Position numbers and translations under genes: made by a program. A DNA stretch of 64,000 nt from Cytophagaceae bacterium (GTDB taxonomy: Bacteria; Bacteroidota; Bacteroidia; Cytophagales; Flexibacteraceae). Numbering within the stretch: position 1 is the first letter of the stretch; the number at the start of each line of letters is the position of its first letter. Location: assembly GCA_027485575.1 (NCBI GenBank), contig JAIXQU010000101.1, positions 1-64,000 of the forward strand, given 5' to 3'. Positions 251 through 27,884 of the stretch are shown in pieces. The notes beneath the pieces were generated by a model that did no database searches, was not told where the DNA came from, and saw only the letters and a list, made by a program, of their open reading frames with translations.

Positions 251-2217
251 ATGTCATTAAAAGATTCTAAAACCGGGTTTATTTCTTTCAAAGCATCATG
301 ATATTGAGACTCGACGATTCTCATTTTTTCAATTACAATTTCAAGATTTTCATTTTGCTTGAGCATTCTTTCCATCAGGCTTAATGTGGTGGCAGTTTCC
401 TGCATACCCATGGCAGAAAATGTTGATACAAGCTTATGCACCAATTTAATCGCTGCCTGGCCATTCCTTTCTTCTAAAAATTTACTGGCAGAACTTATTT
501 CTTCGCAAATGTCATTTTTAAAAACACCTAAGATGTATTTAAAAGTCTCCTGGTCTTTTCCGAATTTCTCCTTGATAAATTCAAAATCCAAAGACTTGGA
601 AAGTTCATTTTTTTCTCCTGGCAAAGGTTTGAAGCTTATTTTTTCATCTTCGCTGGATGAAAACTTTCGAAGTACCCTGAAAAGGTCTTTTTGCTGGTAA
701 GGCTTGGTAATAAAATCATTCATACCCGCCTCCTTGGCCCTAATTTTTGTCTCTGTAAAGGCATCAGCGGTCAGCGCAACAATGGGTATCTGATTGGCCG
801 GGGATTTTAAAGTCTTTCTAACAAATCTGGCCACTTCAAATCCATCAATTTCAGGCATTTGCAGGTCCAAGAGTATTATGTCAAAAGTTCTTCTTTGGAG
901 TTTTGCAATGGCTTCAAAACCGTCGTTGGCCAACTCAACCGTAACTCCCCATGATGTCAAAATTTGCCTGGCCAGTAGCTGGTTAATTTTGTTGTCTTCG
1001 ACCAATAAAACTTTCAAGTCAACAAATTTTCCAAAATCTATTTCTTCAAACCCTTCCTCTTTTTCAAAATCCTTTTGGGTGGCTTTTAAATAGCTTAAAA
1101 AGAAAGTGAATGTTGTTCCTTTTCCAACCGTACTTTTTACACTTATTTCTCCAGCCTGCATTTCCACCAACCTTTTGGTGATGGAAAGACCTAGTCCTGT
1201 TCCCTGAGATTTGAATCTTTGATTGGAATGAACCTGAGTAAAACTGTTAAATATTGAATTTAGTTTATCTTTTGGTATGCCAATTCCTGTGTCAGAAACT
1301 TTAAATTCCAATACAATCTCAGTTTCATTTTCGCTGAGTATGTCGATGTTGAGTTTGATTTTTCCGGTTTGGGTAAATTTTATGCTATTGCCCAAAAGAT
1401 TTAATAAAATTTGAGAAAGTCTGACTGCATCTCCTTTCAAATATTTTGGAATCGATCCGGAAATCTGGATTTCATACAGGATGTTTTTTGCCAGCGCCGA
1501 AAGTGTAATACTTTTATTTAACTCTTCCAGAACCGAAAAAAAATCAAATGCCTGTATTTCAAAGGTAAATTTTCCGGCTTCGATTTTAGAAAAATCAAGA
1601 ATATCGTTGATAATGGTGAGTAGATTATTGGCTGAAAACCGAATGGCTTTAAGGTTTTCAGAAGAATTTTCATCTAATTTTTTATTGATTAGGAGTTCTG
1701 TAAGCCCAATGATTGCATTCATTGGAGTTCTAATCTCATGGCTCATACTGGAAAGAAATGCCGATTTGGCACGAGCATCTGCAAGTGCAGCCTCTTTGTC
1801 ATAACGCAGTTCGCTTTCTAAACTTATTTTTTTCGAGACATCCATGCCAACAACCGAAACGCCGATTTGAATTCCTTTTGCATTAAATACAGGACTAAAA
1901 ATAAATTCAAACCAGATTTTTTTCTTCTTGGAATTTCCGAATTCATGAACCACCGTTTCCTTCAGACCTGCAAGTGCCTTGTTTAGTGCGTCATTAAATA
2001 TTTTTTTATCCGTAGATTCAGATATGAGAAAAAGTGGATTTAGATTTAAATGTAGTTCATTGCCGTAACAATTTTGCATCATTTCTGCATGTGACTTATT
2101 GAAAAACAAGTAGTTACCCTGCGTGTCGAGGGAAAAGAATTGTTCATCCAGGGCGTTCAAAAATACCGGAATCAATTTGCTTTGGTCAAAAAACGGTTCT
2201 TTTTCTGAATCAGTCAT
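247..2217 (-). CDS. Hybrid sensor histidine kinase/response regulator with HPt domain
   Basis: A 656-residue one-piece phosphorelay. An N-terminal PAS-like region (about 15-130) is followed by a short coiled linker, a HisKA dimerisation domain with phospho-acceptor His160 in SMSHEIRTPMN, and a HATPase domain (N-box Asn277, DTGIGIP at 309-315, GTGLGL at 339-344). A receiver domain follows (acidic pocket LLVEDN at 404-409, phospho-acceptor Asp451, Lys505), then a C-terminal HPt domain with likely phospho-acceptor His594 (LVHKLVS). No transmembrane helices or signal peptide are visible, so it is probably a cytoplasmic sensor. The order supports a His-Asp-His relay that needs a separate output regulator, which is not encoded nearby. 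The signal is unknown. Confidence 0.93.
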   Translation of the reverse strand: MTDSEKEPFFDQSKLIPVFLNALDEQFFSLDTQGNYLFFNKSHAEMMQNCYGNELHLNLNPLFLISESTDKKIFNDALNKALAGLKETVVHEFGNSKKKKIWFEFIFSPVFNAKGIQIGVSVVGMDVSKKISLESELRYDKEAALADARAKSAFLSSMSHEIRTPMNAIIGLTELLINKKLDENSSENLKAIRFSANNLLTIINDILDFSKIEAGKFTFEIQAFDFFSVLEELNKSITLSALAKNILYEIQISGSIPKYLKGDAVRLSQILLNLLGNSIKFTQTGKIKLNIDILSENETEIVLEFKVSDTGIGIPKDKLNSIFNSFTQVHSNQRFKSQGTGLGLSITKRLVEMQAGEISVKSTVGKGTTFTFFLSYLKATQKDFEKEEGFEEIDFGKFVDLKVLLVEDNKINQLLARQILTSWGVTVELANDGFEAIAKLQRRTFDIILLDLQMPEIDGFEVARFVRKTLKSPANQIPIVALTADAFTETKIRAKEAGMNDFITKPYQQKDLFRVLRKFSSSEDEKISFKPLPGEKNELSKSLDFEFIKEKFGKDQETFKYILGVFKNDICEEISSASKFLEERNGQAAIKLVHKLVSTFSAMGMQETATTLSLMERMLKQNENLEIVIEKMRIVESQYHDALKEINPVLESFNDI

Positions 2218-2651
2218 TTCCTGTTTTTACTTGTGGGCTGATTACAAATTTGGGTTTACAGAAAATACAATTCCAATTTTTTTTTTCGACCCATGTCAGA
2301 TTTTGGATTTTGAGGACCAATTCGAATAAATTCCTTTCGTTATAACCATGATTTTTTTTTGAATTCAAATTTAAGTTCCTCAAATACAGAATAATAAATT
2401 TGATTTTTTCAAAATTTTATTGAATTGAACAAATGCAAGTTTCAATAAACAATATCGCCATATTGTTTAACCTTAACTGGTGTTTTGGAAATCAACTGGT
2501 TTTCGGTAAAACTTTAAATTTAGACTTTGGCAATAATCCTAAATTTTTAGAATACCAGATTACTCATTAATAATTAGAGGGTGAAGCACAAATTTTGCAC
2601 TATTTTTGCCATCCCATTTTGGCTTTCAGAGCCATTAATTAAAAAATAATA
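2218..2651. other. Intergenic region between divergent histidine kinase and secA
   Basis: A 434-base AT-rich stretch separates two divergent genes. It holds a TAnnTTTG box for secA near its right end. No open frame, repeat or RNA gene was recognised in the rest. Confidence 0.6.
2601..2608 (+). promoter_or_regulatory. Candidate secA minus-7 box (TATTTTTG)
   Basis: TATTTTTG matches the Bacteroidota TAnnTTTG consensus exactly and would start transcription about 40 bases before the secA ATG. I see no TTG at the expected minus-33 spacing, so support is moderate. Confidence 0.45.
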
Positions 2652-5600
2652 ATGCTAAATCTGCTCACAAAAGCTATTGCAGCTGTCTTTGGAACTAAAT
2701 CTGAAAAAGACCTCAAGGAGCTTTACCCATATGTTACCAGAATCAATGATGCCTGGCATAAGCTAACAAATATATCAAACGATCAACTTCGAAACAGGAC
2801 AATAGAATTAAAGGATTTTATTCAATCTGGATTAAAGTCTATTGATCAGCAAATCAATGATTTAAAATCCAAAATAGAAACCAGCCCCGATATATCCGTT
2901 ACTGAAAAGGAAGGCTATTTTGTTCAGATCGATAAACTTGAATTAGAAAGAAATCAAAGACTTGAAGTGCTGCTTTTGGAAATTTTACCAGAAGCATTTG
3001 CCGTGGTAAAAGAGACCGCAAGGCGATTTGCTACATCTGATGGAATCGAAGTAACAGCCAATGATTTTGATCGGGAACTTGCTCAAAATAGAGATAGCAT
3101 TAAAATCGATGGTTCAAAGGCTTTTTGGAGTTCAACCTGGAAAGTGGCCGGCAACGATGTCCGATGGGAAATGGTACACTATGATGTTCAGCTGATTGGG
3201 GGAACTGTTCTACACAGTGGAAAAATTTCAGAAATGGCAACTGGTGAAGGTAAAACCTTAGTTTCGACTCTTCCTGCCTATCTAAATGCCCTTGCCGGAA
3301 AAGGAGTTCATATTGTAACGGTGAACGATTACCTGGCAAAACGGGATTCTGAGTGGAATGGAACTTTGTTTGAGTTCCATGGGCTGAGGGTAGATTGTAT
3401 AGACAAGCATCAGCCTAATACTGAAGAAAGAAGGAATGCCTATCAGGCTGATATTACCTATGGAACCAATAACGAGTTTGGCTTTGATTATTTGAGGGAT
3501 AACATGGCCCACGACAAAGATGAATTGGTTCAAAGGAAATTGCACTTTGCCATGGTGGATGAAGTTGACTCCGTTTTGATTGATGACGCCAGAACGCCTT
3601 TGATCATATCCGGGCCCATGGCACAGGGAGACAGACAGGATTTTGAGTCCTTAAAACCAAGGGTTTCCAAACTGGTTGAAGCTCAAAAAGCACTGGTCCA
3701 AAAATTACTCATCGAATCAAAAAAACTAATTGGTGAAGGAAATGATAAAGATGGAGGACTGGCACTTTTCAGGGCACATCGAGGTCTGCCTAAATATAAG
3801 CCGCTAATCAAATATTTGTCAGAATCCGGAATGCGGGTAATACTCCAAAAAACAGAAAATCTGCATTTGGAAGACAACCAGAAAAGAATGCCGGAAGCAG
3901 ATAAAATTCTTTATTTCACCATCGACGAAAGAAACAACTCCATTGATCTCACAGAGCAGGGAATCGATTTTATTACCTCTTCCGGCGAAGATCCTCAGTT
4001 CTTTATTTTACCCGATGTTGGGGCCGCAATGGCCGCTATTGAAAACAATAAGGCACTTACTTCACAGCAAAAAATCGAAGAAAAGGATTCTTTAATCAGT
4101 GATTATTCAGAAAAGTCTCAAAGGATTCATACAATTCAGCAACTTCTCAAGGCTTATTGTCTTTTTGAAAAAGAGGTTGAGTACATCATTGTTGATGGGA
4201 AAGTAAAAATCGTAGATGAACAAACCGGTCGTATCATGGAAGGCCGCCGGTATTCTGATGGATTGCACCAGGCAATTGAGGCAAAAGAAAGTGTAAAAAT
4301 TGAGGATGCTACCCAGACTTACGCTACAGTCACACTTCAAAACTATTTCCGGATGTACCACAAGCTTTGTGGAATGACCGGAACAGCGGAAACAGAAGCG
4401 GGTGAGTTCTGGCAAATATATAAGTTGGATGTAGTCACCATTCCAACCAATAAAAAGGCAGTAAGAAAAGATTCTGAAGATAAGGTTTACAAAACCATTA
4501 GAGAGAAATTTAATGCGGTTGTAGAAGAAATTGAGATCTTAACCAAGGCCGACAGGCCAGTTTTGGTGGGTACCACTTCGGTAGAAATTTCTGAGCTTTT
4601 AAGCAGGATGCTTAAGCTAAGAAACATCAAACACCAGGTTTTGAATGCCAAGTACCACCAGAAAGAAGCAGAAATTGTAGCCGAAGCGGGTAAACCGGGA
4701 ACAGTAACCATTGCCACCAATATGGCTGGAAGGGGAACAGATATAAAACTAACTGAAATTTCAAGAAATGCCGGAGGTTTGGCCATTATTGGTACAGAAA
4801 GGCATGAATCCAGAAGGGTAGACAGGCAGTTAAGAGGAAGGTCCGGGCGACAGGGAGATCCGGGAAGTTCGCAATTCTTTGTAAGTCTCGAAGATGATTT
4901 GATGCGACTTTTTGGTTCTGACAGAATCAGTAAACTTATGGACAGGATGGGTTTTCAGGAGGGCGAAGTAATTCAACATTCCATGATCACCAACTCTATA
5001 GAAAGAGCCCAGAAAAAGGTTGAAGAAAACAATTTTGGTATCAGGAAAAGACTTTTGGAATATGATGATGTGATGAACTCACAAAGAGAGGTCATTTACA
5101 AAAGAAGAAGAAATGCCCTGATTGGCGACAGATTGGCCCTTGATATTCAGAACCTTATTTGGGATACTTGTTCTAATCTTGTAGAAAGCAATAAGGTTGG
5201 CCAGGTTGATTTTGAGAAATTCCAAATGGAATGTCAGCATAACTTCGCCTATATACCAGACATTCAGGAAGAAGCATTCAGGAATGAAAAGAAGGATGCA
5301 TTGGTTTCAAAACTGTTTGGCCAGGTTAACAAGATCTACAAAGAAAGATGTACGCTTATAAAAGAAGCTACGTTGCCGGTATTTAATCAAATCAATACAG
5401 AACAGGGAGGTAGAATAGAAAATGTAGTAGTCCCTGTTACGGATGGCAAGCGATTTATGCAAATGCCGGTTTCCTTGAAAAAAGTTCTTGAAAATAACGG
5501 TGAAGAACTCGTTAAAACCATTCAGCAACAAGGTTCTTTGGTTTTCATTGACCAGACCTGGAAAGAGCATCTGAGAGATATGGATGAGCTGAAGCAATCT

Positions 5601-7634: not shown

Positions 7635-8528
7635 CTAAATCCAGGTAATCCCCTTTCTGAAAAATTGCTGACTTTTCCATTCCTCCGTTTCTTCTTTGGG
7701 GAAATAGTTGGACTCCCATCTGGCAAGGGGTGGCATACTCATTAAAATGGACTCAGTCCGGCCATTGGTTTCCAACCCAAATTTAGTTCCGGCATCGTAA
7801 ACAAGGTTAAATTCCACATACCGGGACCTGCGGTGAAGCTGCCATTCCTTCTCTTTTTCTCCCCAGATTAGGTTTTTCCTTTTTGACATGAGCTGGGTAT
7901 AAATGGGCGCAAAAGCAGAACCTACAGATTGGGTGAGCAACCAGAGTTTATCAAATTGTTTATCATCAACAGCTTCCATCCGGTCATAGAAAATTCCCCC
8001 AATTCCTCTCGTTTCATTTCTATGGGGGATAAAAAAATAATTGTCAGCTGTTTCTTTAAATGTGTTATAGCTTTGATAATCAAAGCTTTCGCATGCGTTT
8101 TTTAAACTCTGATGGAAAAATCTCCCATCTTCTTCAAATACAAAAGCAGGGGTAAGGTCTATCCCGCCACCAAACCAGTTTTGGCCGTTTGAAAGTTCAA
8201 AATACCGCACATTCATATGAATGATAGGCACCCAGGGGTTTTCAGGATGGATGACAATGGAAACTCCGGTCGCAAAAAAATCTTTGGCTTCCGTCTTAAA
8301 ACTTTGTTGAATGGGTTTTGGCGTTTCTCCAAAAACTGCTGAAAAATTAACTCCTCCTTTTTCGATTACGTTGCCTCCAACAAGAAGTCTGGTTAAACCC
8401 CCTCCGCCGCCTGGTCTTTCCCATTTTTCAGACCCAAATTTGCCTTTTCCATCTTCTTTTTCAAGTTGCGAGATGATGTCAGATTGCAAATCCTGGAACC
8501 AGTCGGCTATTTTTTCTCTTTTTTCCAT
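7635..8528 (-). CDS. hemF: Oxygen-dependent coproporphyrinogen III oxidase
   Basis: Converts coproporphyrinogen III to protoporphyrinogen IX with O2, an aerobic step of haem synthesis in the cytoplasm. The 297-residue protein is full length and carries family signatures: WERPGGGGGLTRLL near the N-terminus, IHMNVRYFE, GGIDLTPAF, ETRGIGGIFYDR and the late block RRSRYVEFNLVYDAGTKFGL. This last block includes the ERRGRYVEFNL-type segment that defines the active site. The ATG chosen gives the normal length. It is divergently transcribed from def across 193 bases and convergent with the membrane protein upstream in the window. Confidence 0.97.
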   Translation of the reverse strand: MEKREKIADWFQDLQSDIISQLEKEDGKGKFGSEKWERPGGGGGLTRLLVGGNVIEKGGVNFSAVFGETPKPIQQSFKTEAKDFFATGVSIVIHPENPWVPIIHMNVRYFELSNGQNWFGGGIDLTPAFVFEEDGRFFHQSLKNACESFDYQSYNTFKETADNYFFIPHRNETRGIGGIFYDRMEAVDDKQFDKLWLLTQSVGSAFAPIYTQLMSKRKNLIWGEKEKEWQLHRRSRYVEFNLVYDAGTKFGLETNGRTESILMSMPPLARWESNYFPKEETEEWKSQQFFRKGITWI

Positions 8529-8698
8529 TAAAAATGTGAACTTAGGGCAAAGATTAAATGATCTCCAATCAAAGCCAATTTATTTGATTATTTAGGTCAG
8601 ATTTTTCTCATGATGAAAAATAATCAGTCTAACAGGCTGATAAAAAGTCTATTAAAGATATTGGTTTAAAAACTATTCGATATCCAACCCTAAGTATT

Positions 8699-8706
8699 TA
8701 CTTTTG
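8699..8706 (+). promoter_or_regulatory. Candidate def minus-7 box (TACTTTTG)
   Basis: TACTTTTG matches TAnnTTTG exactly and lies 15 bases before the def ATG, which implies a leader of about ten bases. No clear minus-33 TTG was found at standard spacing. Confidence 0.45.
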
Positions 8707-8721
8707 TATCAATATTAAGAG

Positions 8722-9282
8722 ATGATTTATCCCATTGTAGCACTTGGAAACCCTGTTTTGAAGGAACGGGCTTCGGAAATTGAACTTAACCATCCAGAGC
8801 TTAAAACACTTATCAATGACATGTTTGAAACCATGTACAATGCCAGCGGTGTTGGTTTGGCTGCTCCACAAATTGGTAAAAGCATCCGGCTTTTTGTAAT
8901 TGATGCAGAACCAATGGATGAGGAAAAGTTGAAAGGGGCGAAAATGGTATTCATCAATCCCTTACGGGTGGAAGAGGAAGGAGAACCCTGGCCCTATGAG
9001 GAAGGTTGCCTAAGTATTCCCGGAATAAGAGAGGCGGTGAAAAGACCCGAAAAAATCACCATTCAATACCATGATGAGACTGGAAATAGCCATAAAAGGA
9101 CATTTGAAGGAATGTTGGCAAGGGTTATCCAGCATGAATATGATCACCTTGAGGGTAAGCTCTTTATCGACTATCTTTCTCCCTTTAGAAAAAAATTGAT
9201 CCAAAATAAGCTAAACGATATTTTAAAGGCAAAAGCAAAAGCAGAATACCCCATTCGGTTTATTCCTCAAGGCAAAAGGTAG
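8722..9282 (+). CDS. def: Peptide deformylase
   Basis: Removes the formyl group from the N-terminal methionine of nascent proteins. All three signature motifs are present: GVGLAAPQIG (Gln50), EGCLSIPG (metal ligand Cys96) and QHEYDHLEG (ligands His138 and His142, catalytic Glu139). The 186-residue length is normal, with a basic C-terminal tail. It stands alone between hemF and the VOC gene. The candidate promoter box lies just upstream, which supports the ATG used. Confidence 0.98.
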   Translation: MIYPIVALGNPVLKERASEIELNHPELKTLINDMFETMYNASGVGLAAPQIGKSIRLFVIDAEPMDEEKLKGAKMVFINPLRVEEEGEPWPYEEGCLSIPGIREAVKRPEKITIQYHDETGNSHKRTFEGMLARVIQHEYDHLEGKLFIDYLSPFRKKLIQNKLNDILKAKAKAEYPIRFIPQGKR

Positions 9283-22481: not shown

Positions 22482-23076
22482 GCAGCCTTATCAGGTAGGT
22501 TTAACCGGAGGCATCGGAAGTGGAAAATCTACGGTAGCCCGCGTGTTTCAGATTTTGGATGTGCCTGTTTATGAGTCAGATGAAGCAGCAAAGCTTGTAT
22601 ATTTTTTCCCGGAGGTTAGAGAATTGGTCATTGGTCTTTTGGGACCGGAAGCTTATCTATCAAAAACAGAATTGAACTCAAAATGGATAGGTAATACGGT
22701 TTATTCAGATCCTGGCCTGTTAAAATGTTTAAATGAAATAATTCATCCGGAAGTTGGGGAGCATTACCATCATTGGTTGTCTTTACAAACCAATCCGTAT
22801 GTTGTTAAGGTGGCAGCTTTAATATTTGAAGCCAATATTTATAAAAATATGGACTTTAATGTTCTGGTAACTGCTCCTTTGGATTTAAAAATTGAACGTG
22901 TTTTAAAGAGAGATCCACTCAGGGATAGGGAACAATTGGAAAAAATAATAAATAGTCAGCTGAGTGATGACGAGAAAAAAAAACTATCGGATTCGATAAT
23001 TCAAAACGACGATTCAATAAGCATCATTTCTCAGGTTTTGGAATTGCATAAAGTCATTTTAACCAAATGTTCTTAA
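22465..23076 (+). CDS. coaE: Dephospho-CoA kinase
   Basis: Phosphorylates the 3-hydroxyl of dephospho-CoA, the last step of CoA synthesis. The P-loop GLTGGIGSGKST starts near residue 12. The CoA-binding segments YESDEAAK, NEIIHPEV and VLVTAPLDLKIERVLKRD follow in order. The frame starts at GTG 22465; an ATG at 22471 is also in frame. Both lie inside the end of the YbbR gene, so coupling is likely. The 203-residue length is normal. Its TAA overlaps the stop of the convergent gene by 4 bases (TTAA). Confidence 0.96.
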   Translation: MFMHDKQPYQVGLTGGIGSGKSTVARVFQILDVPVYESDEAAKLVYFFPEVRELVIGLLGPEAYLSKTELNSKWIGNTVYSDPGLLKCLNEIIHPEVGEHYHHWLSLQTNPYVVKVAALIFEANIYKNMDFNVLVTAPLDLKIERVLKRDPLRDREQLEKIINSQLSDDEKKKLSDSIIQNDDSISIISQVLELHKVILTKCS

Positions 23077-23978
23077 TTTGATTCCTCCCGGTTTTCCATC
23101 ATAATGCCTTTAAAATGTTGGATTTGTTTTGGGCTTAATTCCGGGTTTTGAGAAAGTGAATTAATCATTGATTTCATAAAAACCCATGCATCATTTTTTC
23201 TTCCGCTTTTTAGAAGACAAAGGTATTTGTAGTACATAAATAAACCATTTCCCGGGAACCTATGGCAAAGCACCTCAGAATACCTGTAAGAAAGAGAATG
23301 CTTATTTTCATCTAAATAGATCTTCATCAGAAAGTAGTTTGCTTCAGTATTCAAATACCGGTTGTTACTTTCAGAGGCTTTCTCCAGGAAGGATATACCG
23401 TTTTCTTTATTTCCAGAAGGATATAATTTAAGATAAGGAATCAGAAGAGGATAAGAGTCTCCGGCATTCGCCCGATAATAATTGTATAGACCGGTAGTTA
23501 AAAAAAAGAACGGATACTTTGTTTCATTTCCAAAGCTTGCCTTTAAATAGCGGATACATTTTCTGATTCGGAAAAAGGCCTTGAAATAGTTCTCTGAAAG
23601 GATATCCATTCTAGAAAGATATCCATACATACTTATTGTTTTGAAAATCAAGGGAAAATCAGATTTTTTCCGGGCTTCTATCAGTTTTTCAGATTTATGT
23701 AGTTTGTTGTAGAACTGTTTCTTTAGGGATTCATCATTCAGGCCAGATACAATTTTCCACCACAAAATGTTTGATTCTAAGAGATTGACCTCAACAATGT
23801 CTCTTCCCTCTGCTTCAGTTGAAAAGATCTTTAAAAGGCTATCTGCACTTTTAAATTTAAAATTATAGCAATATTCAAAAATTTGGGTGGAGCGGTTACT
23901 CTGGTATTGTGCATTGCAAAGTGAGGTCCAACTCAAACCATAAAAAATAAATAAGAGTTTAATTTTTTGAATGATCAT
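23073..23978 (-). CDS. Exported TPR-like protein of unknown function
   Basis: A 301-residue protein with a signal peptide ending near SLCNAQYQS. The mature part is helical with weak TPR-type spacing (FKSADSLLKIF, FKAFFRIRKCIRYLKA, RYLNTEANYFLMKIYLDENKHSLSYRYSEVL), consistent with a tetratricopeptide solenoid. There is no catalytic motif. It is monocistronic between coaE and the TM2 gene. I do not recognise a named family. Confidence 0.7.
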   Translation of the reverse strand: MIIQKIKLLFIFYGLSWTSLCNAQYQSNRSTQIFEYCYNFKFKSADSLLKIFSTEAEGRDIVEVNLLESNILWWKIVSGLNDESLKKQFYNKLHKSEKLIEARKKSDFPLIFKTISMYGYLSRMDILSENYFKAFFRIRKCIRYLKASFGNETKYPFFFLTTGLYNYYRANAGDSYPLLIPYLKLYPSGNKENGISFLEKASESNNRYLNTEANYFLMKIYLDENKHSLSYRYSEVLCHRFPGNGLFMYYKYLCLLKSGRKNDAWVFMKSMINSLSQNPELSPKQIQHFKGIMMENREESN

Positions 23979-24374: not shown

Positions 24375-24791
24375 ATGAAAAAACTTATTCTTGGTCTAGC
24401 CTTAATCGGTGGGTTGTTTACCACCAATTTTGCATCTGCCTCGGCTTACAAAGCGGACGATGCTTCGATTGATGTCTTATTTGACAACTCAATTGACATA
24501 ACCACAACTGTTAACGAAATGGCACTTGGTTCCATGATGGCACCTCAATCTGTCACTGGGGACCAATCTGTCGGAGGATATCTTGTAAGGTCTTTCTTCT
24601 GCGGATTCATTGGTTTGCACAGAAGTTATATGGGTACTGGAGGTAAATCTGTTTGGTGGTGGTATTTCTGCGTTCCGGTTTTAGGAGGTGTTACAAACTG
24701 CTTCGATTTCTGGTGGGTAGTATTTAAGGGAGGTGAGGCAATGGAAAAATATAGAGATAATGGAAAATTAATGGTTTGGACTGGTAACTAA
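24375..24791 (+). CDS. TM2-domain-like membrane protein with signal peptide
   Basis: A 138-residue protein. A cleavable signal peptide (MKKLILGLALIGGLFTTNFASA) is followed by a polar stretch and then two hydrophobic helices of a TM2-type unit: YLVRSFFCGFIGLHRSYMG and WWYFCVPVLGGVTNCFDFWWVV. The Gly-x-x-Gly-x-His-Arg-x-Tyr motif between the helices is the TM2 hallmark. The C-terminus is short (GGEAMEKYRDNGKLMVW). A strong terminator follows directly. Its own promoter and operator-like palindrome suggest independent, regulated expression. The function is unknown. Confidence 0.8.
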   Translation: MKKLILGLALIGGLFTTNFASASAYKADDASIDVLFDNSIDITTTVNEMALGSMMAPQSVTGDQSVGGYLVRSFFCGFIGLHRSYMGTGGKSVWWWYFCVPVLGGVTNCFDFWWVVFKGGEAMEKYRDNGKLMVWTGN

Positions 24792-24812
24792 TATCCGCTT
24801 CATTCATTAAAC

Positions 24813-24841
24813 AAAAAAAGCACCTTTAAGGTGCTTTTTTT
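24813..24841. terminator. Bidirectional intrinsic terminator
   Basis: AAAAAAAGCACC, loop TTTAA, GGTGCTTTTTTT: a 12-bp perfect stem flanked by A and T runs, usable in both directions. It serves the TM2 gene (plus) and the four-gene envelope operon (minus), whose last stop codon lies inside the hairpin. Confidence 0.92.
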
Positions 24842-25734
24842 GTTTCCAGGAGATTCAAAATGAATTTTTTTCGGGAATCGTTAAATGTCCTAATTGAAGT
24901 GTAATTTCTTTTCTTTGCCAGAAATTCTGTTCTGTTTAGTCCACCCCCATAGAACTTTTGAAATAAACCGAAAGCCAAAGTTGCTCCAGTGAAGTAATAT
25001 TTATTATATATGCATAATCCGGTAAACCCAAGGGCTACCAGTTGAAGACCAACACTTAAAGTTCCTTCCCAAAAGTATCCACAATACAATTGCCCACTTC
25101 CAGGCAATAACATACTTAATTTCTTTGCATATTCTACGTTTTTAAGCGTGGGAATTTTTTTGGTTTCATACATTTCATTAACCTCATTGCAAAGTTTAGA
25201 AACCATTTCAGGATCTTTTTCTTTGAATTTAATATAGTCTTTCAGAACTGATTTTGCTTCTTCCCATTTTTGACTTTCGTTTAAGATTAATGCAAAAAGA
25301 GGATATGCTTTTATATAGATGCTCGTGTCTGGAATAAATCCTTTAGCCAAAATAATTTGCGACTCTGCCAATACGAAATCGCTGTTCAGATAAGCACAAA
25401 GGGCTGTTTTTGACCTTGCTGCAAAAGTTAGGCTGTCGCTTAATTCGCCATAGAATATCCGGGAAAGTACGTTTTGTGCGTTATCAAACTCTTTTCGGGC
25501 CAGGTAGCAATCTGCTTTTTTAATCAGGGCAGTAGTCTTGGTTATATTTTCAATAGCAAGAAAACTTACCTTTTCAAAATATAAACCTGCCAATTGGAAT
25601 TGGCCTGCCTTATACAAGCTATCCCCCTTTTTTTCAAGTCCACTTATGCCTGAATTAATTGCCGAAAATCCGCCGTAATGGAATATGCAGATCAAGCAAA
25701 ATGTTATTATGTATTTCATTGTTGGTGCGCTCAT
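24826..25734 (-). CDS. Exported TPR protein with C-terminal PGSG membrane hairpin (last gene of envelope operon)
   Basis: A 302-residue protein. Signal peptide MKYIITFCLICIFHYGGFSA follows an ATG at residue 6, which may be the true start. A helical TPR-like region (about 30-190; LYKAGQFQLAGLYFEKV, KADCYLARKEFDNAQNVL) is followed by two transmembrane segments that begin with LLPGSGQLYCGYFWEG (about 209-224). The PGxGqxYxG motif is also present at the corresponding place in the gene upstream, so the two are distant paralogues. The gene overlaps that one by 80 bases (65 if the internal ATG is used). Predicted to be anchored in the membrane by the C-terminus. Unknown function. Confidence 0.8.
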   Translation of the reverse strand: MSAPTMKYIITFCLICIFHYGGFSAINSGISGLEKKGDSLYKAGQFQLAGLYFEKVSFLAIENITKTTALIKKADCYLARKEFDNAQNVLSRIFYGELSDSLTFAARSKTALCAYLNSDFVLAESQIILAKGFIPDTSIYIKAYPLFALILNESQKWEEAKSVLKDYIKFKEKDPEMVSKLCNEVNEMYETKKIPTLKNVEYAKKLSMLLPGSGQLYCGYFWEGTLSVGLQLVALGFTGLCIYNKYYFTGATLAFGLFQKFYGGGLNRTEFLAKKRNYTSIRTFNDSRKKFILNLLETKKAP

Positions 25735-26578
25735 AAAAGGTTTTTACGCTTAGGGTGCTACCCCAAATATTTCCCACATAAAAGATTGTGAAAAAGCTGG
25801 CTGCAATTATAAAACCAGCACTTTTTGGACCTGAACGGTAATAGCTTTCTGCTCCTGCTATGGCAAAAAGAAATGTTGGAATCATTCCTGATATGGCCTG
25901 ACCTTTAAGTCCTGCATAGAATTTTCCTGTTCCGGGGACCACTGCAGAAAGCAATCCAGCGACATAGGGCGACTTTTTTTTATTCCGGACTATTTCATCT
26001 TTCCTTTTAAATAAATCCCGTTGTTCGTTTTCACAGGCAAAATTGTTGTACCTAAACTTATTACTCAAACTATCAAAGTCGTTTAACTTTCTTTTCAATA
26101 AGGCAGCACTTGATTGTTGAAACAGTTTTAATTCCTGATTCAATGAATCAGTGGGTTCAAAATTTAGAAGGAGTCTTTCTGCATCATCATATCTGCCTAA
26201 ATATATTTGTTCAAAAATCTGATAGAATTTGGATTTGACATAAAATGGAGATTCTGGTGAAATCTTTTCAAAGTATTTAATACTGCTATCCAATATCTTT
26301 GAATTATAATAAGCCCAGGCTGAATAATAATGGATGCTATCTTCCTGATTTTGATTAAGTGAAGCTATTTTTTTTGAATCATTCAATATCAGGATGGCAT
26401 CTTTATACTCCTTGTTTGTAATCAGATATTCTACAAATTGAAAGTCCAGCCCAGAAAAATTTATAGAATCATTCGTTGAGATTTGACTCAAGGCTGGCCT
26501 GGAAATAGAAAGAACAAAACAAGTAATACATAGGAAAAATCTATTTATGTTTTGATTTCCTTGTTTCATAAATTTCAA
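25655..26578 (-). CDS. Exported TPR protein with C-terminal PGTG membrane hairpin
   Basis: A 307-residue protein with a signal peptide (about 1-31, ending RPALSQ), TPR-like helices (FVEYLITNKEYKDAILIL, AWAYYNSKILDSSIKYFEK, IYLGRYDDAERLLL) and two or three transmembrane segments at about 207-275. These begin with SAVVPGTGKFYAGLKG. The layout and the PGxG motif match the downstream gene. An ATG at residue 4 is an alternative start. It overlaps the YidD-like gene by 38 bases and the next gene by 80 bases, indicating tight translational coupling. Confidence 0.8.
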   Translation of the reverse strand: MKFMKQGNQNINRFFLCITCFVLSISRPALSQISTNDSINFSGLDFQFVEYLITNKEYKDAILILNDSKKIASLNQNQEDSIHYYSAWAYYNSKILDSSIKYFEKISPESPFYVKSKFYQIFEQIYLGRYDDAERLLLNFEPTDSLNQELKLFQQSSAALLKRKLNDFDSLSNKFRYNNFACENEQRDLFKRKDEIVRNKKKSPYVAGLLSAVVPGTGKFYAGLKGQAISGMIPTFLFAIAGAESYYRSGPKSAGFIIAASFFTIFYVGNIWGSTLSVKTFYERTNNEIHNNILLDLHIPLRRIFGN

Positions 26579-26996
26579 TTGGGTCTATAATTTTCTTCTT
26601 ACTTGAAAAATCAATTTGTTTTAGATCGATTAATGTGAATTGGCTACATCGGGTAAGTCGGTCAGCAGTCAAAGAAATACCTTTTAAAAGGCCAAAATGC
26701 TGTATACACCGTTTGCTAAAGTTTGAGCAATTTATCTCATAAGGACAATCCACAGATATTTGGGGAGAAATGGCTTTTTGATAGAAAAAAAGTAATCCCC
26801 CAAAAGTTAATGAAATGGGATTGTATTTTACTAAAACGTTTCTGTTACTCGCGAAGAGATAGGTAACTTTTCTCCTGTCGAACTTTTTCTCTACAAAATT
26901 TTGGTCTTTTAGTAATTGAATTTCATCAATTTCATTTTGACCCTGGCACTCATTATCCAAAATCAAGAGAGAAAACAAAAGCAATAGGTATTTCAT
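26541..26996 (-). CDS. Secreted or membrane-tethered YidD-like protein
   Basis: A 151-residue protein whose middle (about 70-120) matches the YidD family: YQKAISPQIS, then four cysteines (Cys84, Cys90, Cys97, Cys117) set in CPYEINCSNFSKRCIQHFG and RLTRCSQF. YidD normally is about 70-85 residues, has no signal peptide and helps YidC membrane insertion from the inner face. Here a cleavable-looking signal peptide (MKYLLLLFSLLILDNECQGQ) and a 45-residue linker precede the domain, so the domain should be outside the cytoplasm or tethered. It is the second gene of the envelope operon; its ATG overlaps the stop of the LolA-like gene by one base. Confidence 0.8.
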   Translation of the reverse strand: MKYLLLLFSLLILDNECQGQNEIDEIQLLKDQNFVEKKFDRRKVTYLFASNRNVLVKYNPISLTFGGLLFFYQKAISPQISVDCPYEINCSNFSKRCIQHFGLLKGISLTADRLTRCSQFTLIDLKQIDFSSKKKIIDPIEIYETRKSKHK

Positions 26997-27775
26997 TAGC
27001 CTTTCTTTTTTATTTCATTCGGGTTTGGCTTTACGATTTTAGCTCCTGCTGGAATTTGAAAACCTGATAGTGATGGATCCACTTCTCCATTCAACTTAAT
27101 ATTGGTGTAAACTCTTTTGGTTATTACCGAGTCCTTTTCTCCAACGTATTCTATTTCAGTTACAGTCAAGGGAATTTTCGATTGGCCAATTTTTTGAAAG
27201 TTGCTGTAGTAGGTTTTGTGAATGGGCTTATTCTTTAAATCATAAAAGCCTAAAAAGATGGGAAGATAGTTTTCATGAACCAATTCAGCTTTAGAAATTC
27301 CATTGTCAATTTCACCATTCGGTACCCAATCTGTAATGACCATTTTGTTCTCAACCCTTGTTTTATTTAGTTTAAAACCAGTTGATGATAAGGCCAAATC
27401 ATTCATATTGCCCGAAAGAAAAATGAAAAAAAGACTTGACTTCGAGCTAAGGTCCTGGCCTTGCAAAAGTGTTACCTGGTTGGTTTTATAATTATATTCT
27501 TTAAACTCTCCATTTACATTCGTTATAGAGACCTTTTTTTGTGGAGATTTATATTTTGTAATCATAACACCTCCTGAAATTTTATAATATACTTCACTGG
27601 TTATCGTTACAGACTTTCCTTTATGAAGATTTTTAGAAACCAAATCCAGGCTTAGGCTTTCTATCATCTGGTATGGTGGTTTAAAGCCAAGGATAACCAA
27701 AAATAGGGCGCTCCAAGTTCCCAGAGTAATAATTAGGTTCTGTATTTTATTCATTATGAGCAAGTTAAGCGACAT
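26996..27775 (-). CDS. LolA-like outer-membrane lipoprotein carrier-type protein
   Basis: A 259-residue exported protein. A hydrophobic N-terminal segment (LIITLGTWSALFLVILGF) is followed by a beta-rich domain with the LolA/LolB-like progression VYYKISGGVMITKYKSPQKKVSITN, YNYKTNQVTLLQGQDL, PIFLGFYDLKNKPIHKTYYSNFQKIG and IPLTVTEIEY. This pattern (incomplete half-barrel strands and a hydrophobic lining) is that of periplasmic lipoprotein chaperones, though sequence conservation is low. The ATG at 27775 gives seven extra residues; MNKIQNL at 27754 fits a signal peptide better. First gene of the four-gene operon. Confidence 0.6.
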   Translation of the reverse strand: MSLNLLIMNKIQNLIITLGTWSALFLVILGFKPPYQMIESLSLDLVSKNLHKGKSVTITSEVYYKISGGVMITKYKSPQKKVSITNVNGEFKEYNYKTNQVTLLQGQDLSSKSSLFFIFLSGNMNDLALSSTGFKLNKTRVENKMVITDWVPNGEIDNGISKAELVHENYLPIFLGFYDLKNKPIHKTYYSNFQKIGQSKIPLTVTEIEYVGEKDSVITKRVYTNIKLNGEVDPSLSGFQIPAGAKIVKPNPNEIKKKG

Positions 27776-27807
27776 TTTAATATTAAATCAAAATTCTAAT
27801 CAGAAAC

Positions 27808-27815
27808 CAAAACTA
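27808..27815 (-). promoter_or_regulatory. Candidate promoter box of the LolA-like operon (TAGTTTTG)
   Basis: On the minus strand TAGTTTTG matches TAnnTTTG exactly, 33 bases before the first ATG of the operon and after the typA terminator. No minus-33 TTG was seen at normal spacing. Confidence 0.5.
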
Positions 27816-27851: not shown

Positions 27852-27880
27852 AAAAAAACCGGATAAATTCCGGTTTTTTT
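27852..27880 (-). terminator. Intrinsic terminator of typA
   Basis: AAAAAAACCGGA, loop TAAAT, TCCGGTTTTTTT. A 12-bp perfect stem ending in a T run, directly after the typA stop on the minus strand. Confidence 0.9.
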
Positions 27881-27884
27881 TGTT

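Follow-up and report, generated by a model that had tools for sequence, protein, structure and literature searches.

Within the window analysed here, that is, the whole 64,000-nucleotide stretch of Cytophagaceae bacterium DNA (positions 1 to 64,000 of contig JAIXQU010000101.1), a tight run of minus-strand genes raises the question of what a LolA-like protein, an exported YidD-like protein and two TPR proteins might do together. A first-pass annotation, made from the letters alone, had read these genes as a self-contained envelope operon, possibly an envelope-assembly or lipoprotein-handling machine. The four open reading frames are indeed found, at 26996..27775 (LolA-fold protein), 26541..26996 (YidD-like protein, hereafter YidD*), 25655..26578 (TPR1) and 24826..25734 (TPR2), all on the minus strand, and the overlaps of 1, 38 and 80 bases given for them are reproduced with the longest starts. 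The LolA-like and YidD* frames share the single base; the likelier ATG codons at 26569 for TPR1 and, as an alternative start, at 25719 for TPR2 give overlaps of 29 and 65 bases for the other two pairs, and the likely start of the LolA-fold protein is the ATG at 27754. Export signals were assessed from the hydropathy of the N-termini, and a hydrophobic N-terminal segment is present in each of the four proteins and in most of their relatives, in line with the signal sequences assigned to all of them. The four-gene operon is confirmed as real.

The terminators proposed as borders of the operon are real. A strong two-way terminator hairpin, common to the operon and to the TM2 gene that faces it, lies over the TPR2 stop codon (24812..24842) and folds at -21.4 and -20.8 kcal/mol, one value per strand. 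On the other side, the typA terminator (27852..27881, minus strand), a hairpin ACCGGAATTTATCCGGT with a T run, parts the operon from typA. The promoter-like box of the TAnnTTTG type, TAGTTTTG (27808..27815, read 27815-27808 on the minus strand), is present as described, but it carries little weight as the operon's own promoter because the window has many such motifs: there are 36-42 per strand, and the chance of meeting one in the 109-base gap is about 7%. A scan for sigma-70 promoters gave results no better than those from shuffled sequences.

YidD is present in most bacteria, and the YidD-like assignment of the second gene holds, with PF01809 matched at 50.1 bits (cut-off 27), TIGR00278 at 58.2 bits (cut-off 40) and a YidD family match in 23/23 relatives. 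The cysteines C84, C90 and C117 are invariant in the alignment (n=23); the third of them is gone in relatives from another class (loci L070-L087). Unlike the cytoplasmic YidD, which has no export signal, the YidD* relatives carry a hydrophobic N-terminal segment in 42 of 45 cases, as judged from hydropathy only. The YidD tree unites the canonical copies in one clade, supported at 100/99, and the exported copies all fall outside it; the apparent exception, a long copy adjoining a LolA gene in L038, is labelled "canonical" only because its locus is without TPR1. The genome of the window has a canonical YidD as well as YidD*. On sequence grounds, YidD* is a branch distinct from the ordinary YidD. 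Searched by sequence against solved structures, YidD* gave no meaningful match. As for function, a review (PMC8082313) refers to Yu et al. 2011 and enters YidD as a putative membrane protein insertion efficiency factor, on the evidence of in vitro transport and cross-linking.

The LolA-like identity of the first protein stands for the predicted fold but not for the sequence. The AlphaFold2 model has a mean pLDDT of 90, and its top Foldseek match is the LolA of P. aeruginosa (2w7q; E 2.6e-12, probability 1.00), with P. gingivalis LolA3 and LolB also among the matches. By sequence, the protein reaches 17.5 bits against the Pfam LolA_like cut-off of 30, and LolA_like is matched by 8 of 19 relatives (best 7.9e-6); PF03548 has no match anywhere in the window's genome. 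No arginine is invariant in its alignment (A9), the position of the beta2-beta3 loop, where a conserved arginine is expected in LolA, being judged by eye. Besides it, the genome encodes a LolA_2 protein and a DUF4292 protein; because of the former, the LolA-like protein was no longer considered the sole lipoprotein carrier of the cell. An upstream ORF in L049, at one stage read as LolA, is a different protein and was removed from the LolA alignment.

For TPR1 and TPR2, the TPR matches of the window copies fall below the Pfam cut-offs, and the matches of relatives are weak; those of TPR2 match several TPR families (best 6.8e-7), and 10 of 21 also show a weak match to DUF5683. The C-terminal PGxG membrane hairpin attributed to both proteins is borne out: the PG-x-G core is invariant or nearly so across the relatives of both, and the TPR1 alignment contains the invariant residues P215, G216, G218 and Y221. 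The hydropathy profiles of both proteins consist of an N-terminal segment plus C-terminal segments. In the hairpin tree TPR1 and TPR2 fall into two distinct clades, with supports of 91/91 and 99/96, the latter for the TPR2 clade. Since each clade has rows from different classes, the duplication is old, and TPR2 is an ancient paralogue of TPR1. A few extra TPR2-like copies lie away from the cassette in cassette-bearing genomes (e.g., G006:C7 and G029:C22); one off-cassette copy, at G012:C1:52503-53051, has four in-frame stops and is apparently decayed.

A direct connection between the two kinds of protein is provided by a natural fusion in genome G297 (L067:5899-7101, plus strand), where a single ORF encodes a 400-residue exported protein with a signal-like N-terminus, a YidD domain, a TPR-like region and a PGxG hairpin. 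That YidD* and the TPR proteins act together where they are separate is well supported by this fusion. Its structural model has a pLDDT of 72 and a pTM of 0.48; the packing of the YidD and TPR parts in it is not confident, and the model has no fold match below 1e-3.

Conservation of the cassette within the window's order was followed by whole-genome profile searches in 192 genomes, which replaced a scan of named genome contigs with YidD* alone that had returned two loci only; loci were read as stretches of about 12 kb. Strong TPR1 matches occur in 21 of the 192 genomes and TPR2 matches in the identical 21, these being counts of related, not independent, genomes. The LolA-like profile is found at 16 places in 15 genomes, all of them among these 21, and every place lies within a cassette locus. 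Many genomes whose flanking genes differ share the order LolA-YidD*-TPR1-TPR2, frequently with ATGA overlaps of 4 bases; some divergent loci consist of just YidD*-TPR1-TPR2. The homologues are therefore not scattered singly, and the gene order holds across families and classes. Both cassette types are present in genome G006 (L037 and L038), L038 having only LolA and YidD* in the stretch that was read.

The operon is not, however, self-contained as first described, because a gene on the facing strand belongs to the set. This fifth member (24375..24791, plus strand) encodes an exported TM2-domain protein, identified from its relatives, 16 of 22 of which match PF05154 (best 1.6e-13); the window's own copy scores 16.7 bits against a cut-off of 27.9. 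Near full-length matches to the facing gene occur in 19 of the 192 order genomes, and 17 of these 19 have the cassette adjoining, a co-occurrence with a hypergeometric probability of about 1e-18, in which the kinship of the genomes is not corrected for. In nearly all window-type loci the TM2-domain gene faces the operon right after TPR2. Loci of a second type (L040, L060) have a TM2-type gene on the strand of LolA and upstream of it; the linkage thus outlasts rearrangement. The L048 region has five TM2-type copies around the cassette besides the usual one, and L060 has three. This persistent linkage, together with the several copies around cassettes, suggests that the TM2 proteins may be clients or subunits.

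Other small exported neighbours are seen as well. In L048, TM2-type small exported proteins surround the cassette (1812-5213 and 8509-9021), which suggests a growing family of clients or subunits. The slot upstream of LolA is occupied in L065 (7114-7515) and L066 (1456-1869) by a small exported Cys-containing two-TM protein, similar in layout and with no match to the TM2-type profile. In the window itself, an exported helical protein with no Pfam match is encoded at 23073..23978 (minus strand); in L033 a relative is the gene immediately upstream of LolA, and others are near the cassette in L048 and L052. This protein may be a lineage-specific sixth member.

In the wider sample of 392 genomes of the phylum, TPR1 served as the specific marker, because the YidD profile alone could not split exported from canonical copies. 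TPR1 is found in 47 of these genomes, including 26/26 of family f36 and 11/13 of family f54, both outside the window's class; among the matches listed, none falls in families f23-f31 of the window's class. The f36/f54-type loci that were read contain YidD*-TPR1-TPR2 without LolA or TM2. Two genomes outside the window's class (G300 and G323) have the complete LolA-YidD*-TPR1-TPR2 order; single-TPR forms occur in L081, L082 and L083. In loci L070-L087, from another class, the core lies within a conserved neighbourhood: upstream of it is an acyl-CoA dehydrogenase-like gene, and downstream are LemA-like and TPM-like genes, all named by eye. The YidD and hairpin trees are built on about 80-106 columns and leave many branchings unresolved; members of the window's family do not group together in them, an indication of paralogous cassettes, losses or transfer.

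The existence of the module is well shown, whereas for its mechanism we infer a physical complex, the membrane face on which it works, the identity of its clients and its activity. The export-type N-termini, the hairpins and the fusion suggest a periplasm-facing complex at the inner membrane, and the probable periplasmic placement follows from the hydrophobic N-termini. That an inner-membrane-anchored periplasmic complex helps to place membrane or lipid-bearing clients has, in our estimate, a little less than an even chance of being correct. Such a complex would sit on the periplasmic face of the inner membrane, with TPR1 and TPR2 as anchors and docking surfaces: their C-terminal hairpins would hold them in the membrane, and their TPR-like domains would be shown to the periplasm. 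YidD*, as the acting domain and periplasmic counterpart of cytoplasmic YidD, would dock on TPR1/TPR2 and act on membrane-embedded clients from the periplasmic side. In the window's taxonomic order, a dedicated LolA-fold carrier, which could shield a lipid or acylated segment, would bind a hydrophobic or lipidated part or hand it on, and the small exported TM2-hairpin proteins would be the most likely clients or accessory subunits. LolA and TM2 are absent from most of the wider core and therefore cannot define the core activity; for the same reason, the lipoprotein handling suggested at first is one possibility only. The broader proposal of a phylum-wide periplasmic membrane-assembly machine, in which exported YidD and hairpin-anchored TPR proteins act externally on small exported hairpin proteins, is put forward tentatively, as possible rather than probable.

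Specialised lipid transport would explain the same genes differently: the LolA-fold protein would take a non-lipoprotein lipid away from the inner membrane, loaded at a station that YidD* and the TPR/hairpin proteins would form. The modelled LolA fold, with its predicted hydrophobic cleft, is consistent with this, and the separate LolA_2 and DUF4292 proteins of the genome would free the LolA-like protein from general lipoprotein transport. However, neither a lipid biosynthesis gene nor a LolB-like receptor is regularly linked, and the core exists in another class without LolA, which leaves this explanation rather unlikely. RseB is also among the fold matches of the LolA-like protein and gives rise to a further explanation, envelope stress or quality control, where the TPR/hairpin proteins would sense or sequester misinserted membrane proteins and the LolA-fold protein would be an RseB-like sensor. 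Since the RseB matches are far weaker than those to LolA, and sigma or anti-sigma genes are not regularly linked in the loci read by eye, this role is improbable.

It could also be argued that the genes are merely co-expressed and co-inherited and form no machine, given that in one class the core belongs to a larger conserved neighbourhood whose other genes, such as an acyl-CoA dehydrogenase and a LemA-like gene by the names read from their sequences, seem unrelated. Against this stand the natural YidD-TPR fusion, the persistence of the linkage despite different surroundings and the rearrangement of the TM2 gene, and the retention of both TPR paralogues since ancient times, so that simple co-inheritance appears very improbable.

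The reading as a previously unrecognised envelope operon agrees with the literature covered: no description of YidD together with LolA, TPR proteins, or lipoprotein or signal peptide terms was found in open-access sources, one elsewhere being possible. PMC11885536 and PMC13103446, which describe LolA1/LolB1, the flexirubin LolA2/LolB2 and LolA3 of Bacteroidota, make no mention of YidD. The periplasmic complex proposed above would put a version of YidD across the membrane, regularly accompanied by the same TPR partners and once fused to one of them, which opens a new approach to the binding partners of the YidD domain; a dedicated LolA-fold protein is also added to those of the Lol and flexirubin contexts known so far. 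The small size of the cassette makes it feasible to delete it or express it whole.

Compared with the LolA, LolA2 and LolA3 of Bacteroidota, the LolA-like protein has the same predicted fold and a likely periplasmic location, but its sequence lies below the LolA cut-offs and it is tied to a cassette that has no LolB partner. The flexirubin-locus LolA2-LolB2 pair likewise represents a LolA paralogue dedicated to a single locus; the cassette differs in having other partners and in being without pigment genes and LolB. With the membrane hairpin proteins of the TM2 (PF05154) and DUF5683 families, TPR1 and TPR2 share the PG-x-G hairpin, and the facing gene shares the TM2 domain; TPR1 and TPR2 differ in an extra exported TPR-like domain, and their matches are weak. 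Finally, YidD* has the domain of YidD (PF01809, TIGR00278), with the C-x5-C motif and third Cys, the conserved Tyr/Ser and the GxxKG motifs. It differs in its length of about 150 residues, its hydrophobic export-type N-terminus, its own branch and its position, which is not beside rnpA or yidC, and it coexists with the canonical copy in the same genome.
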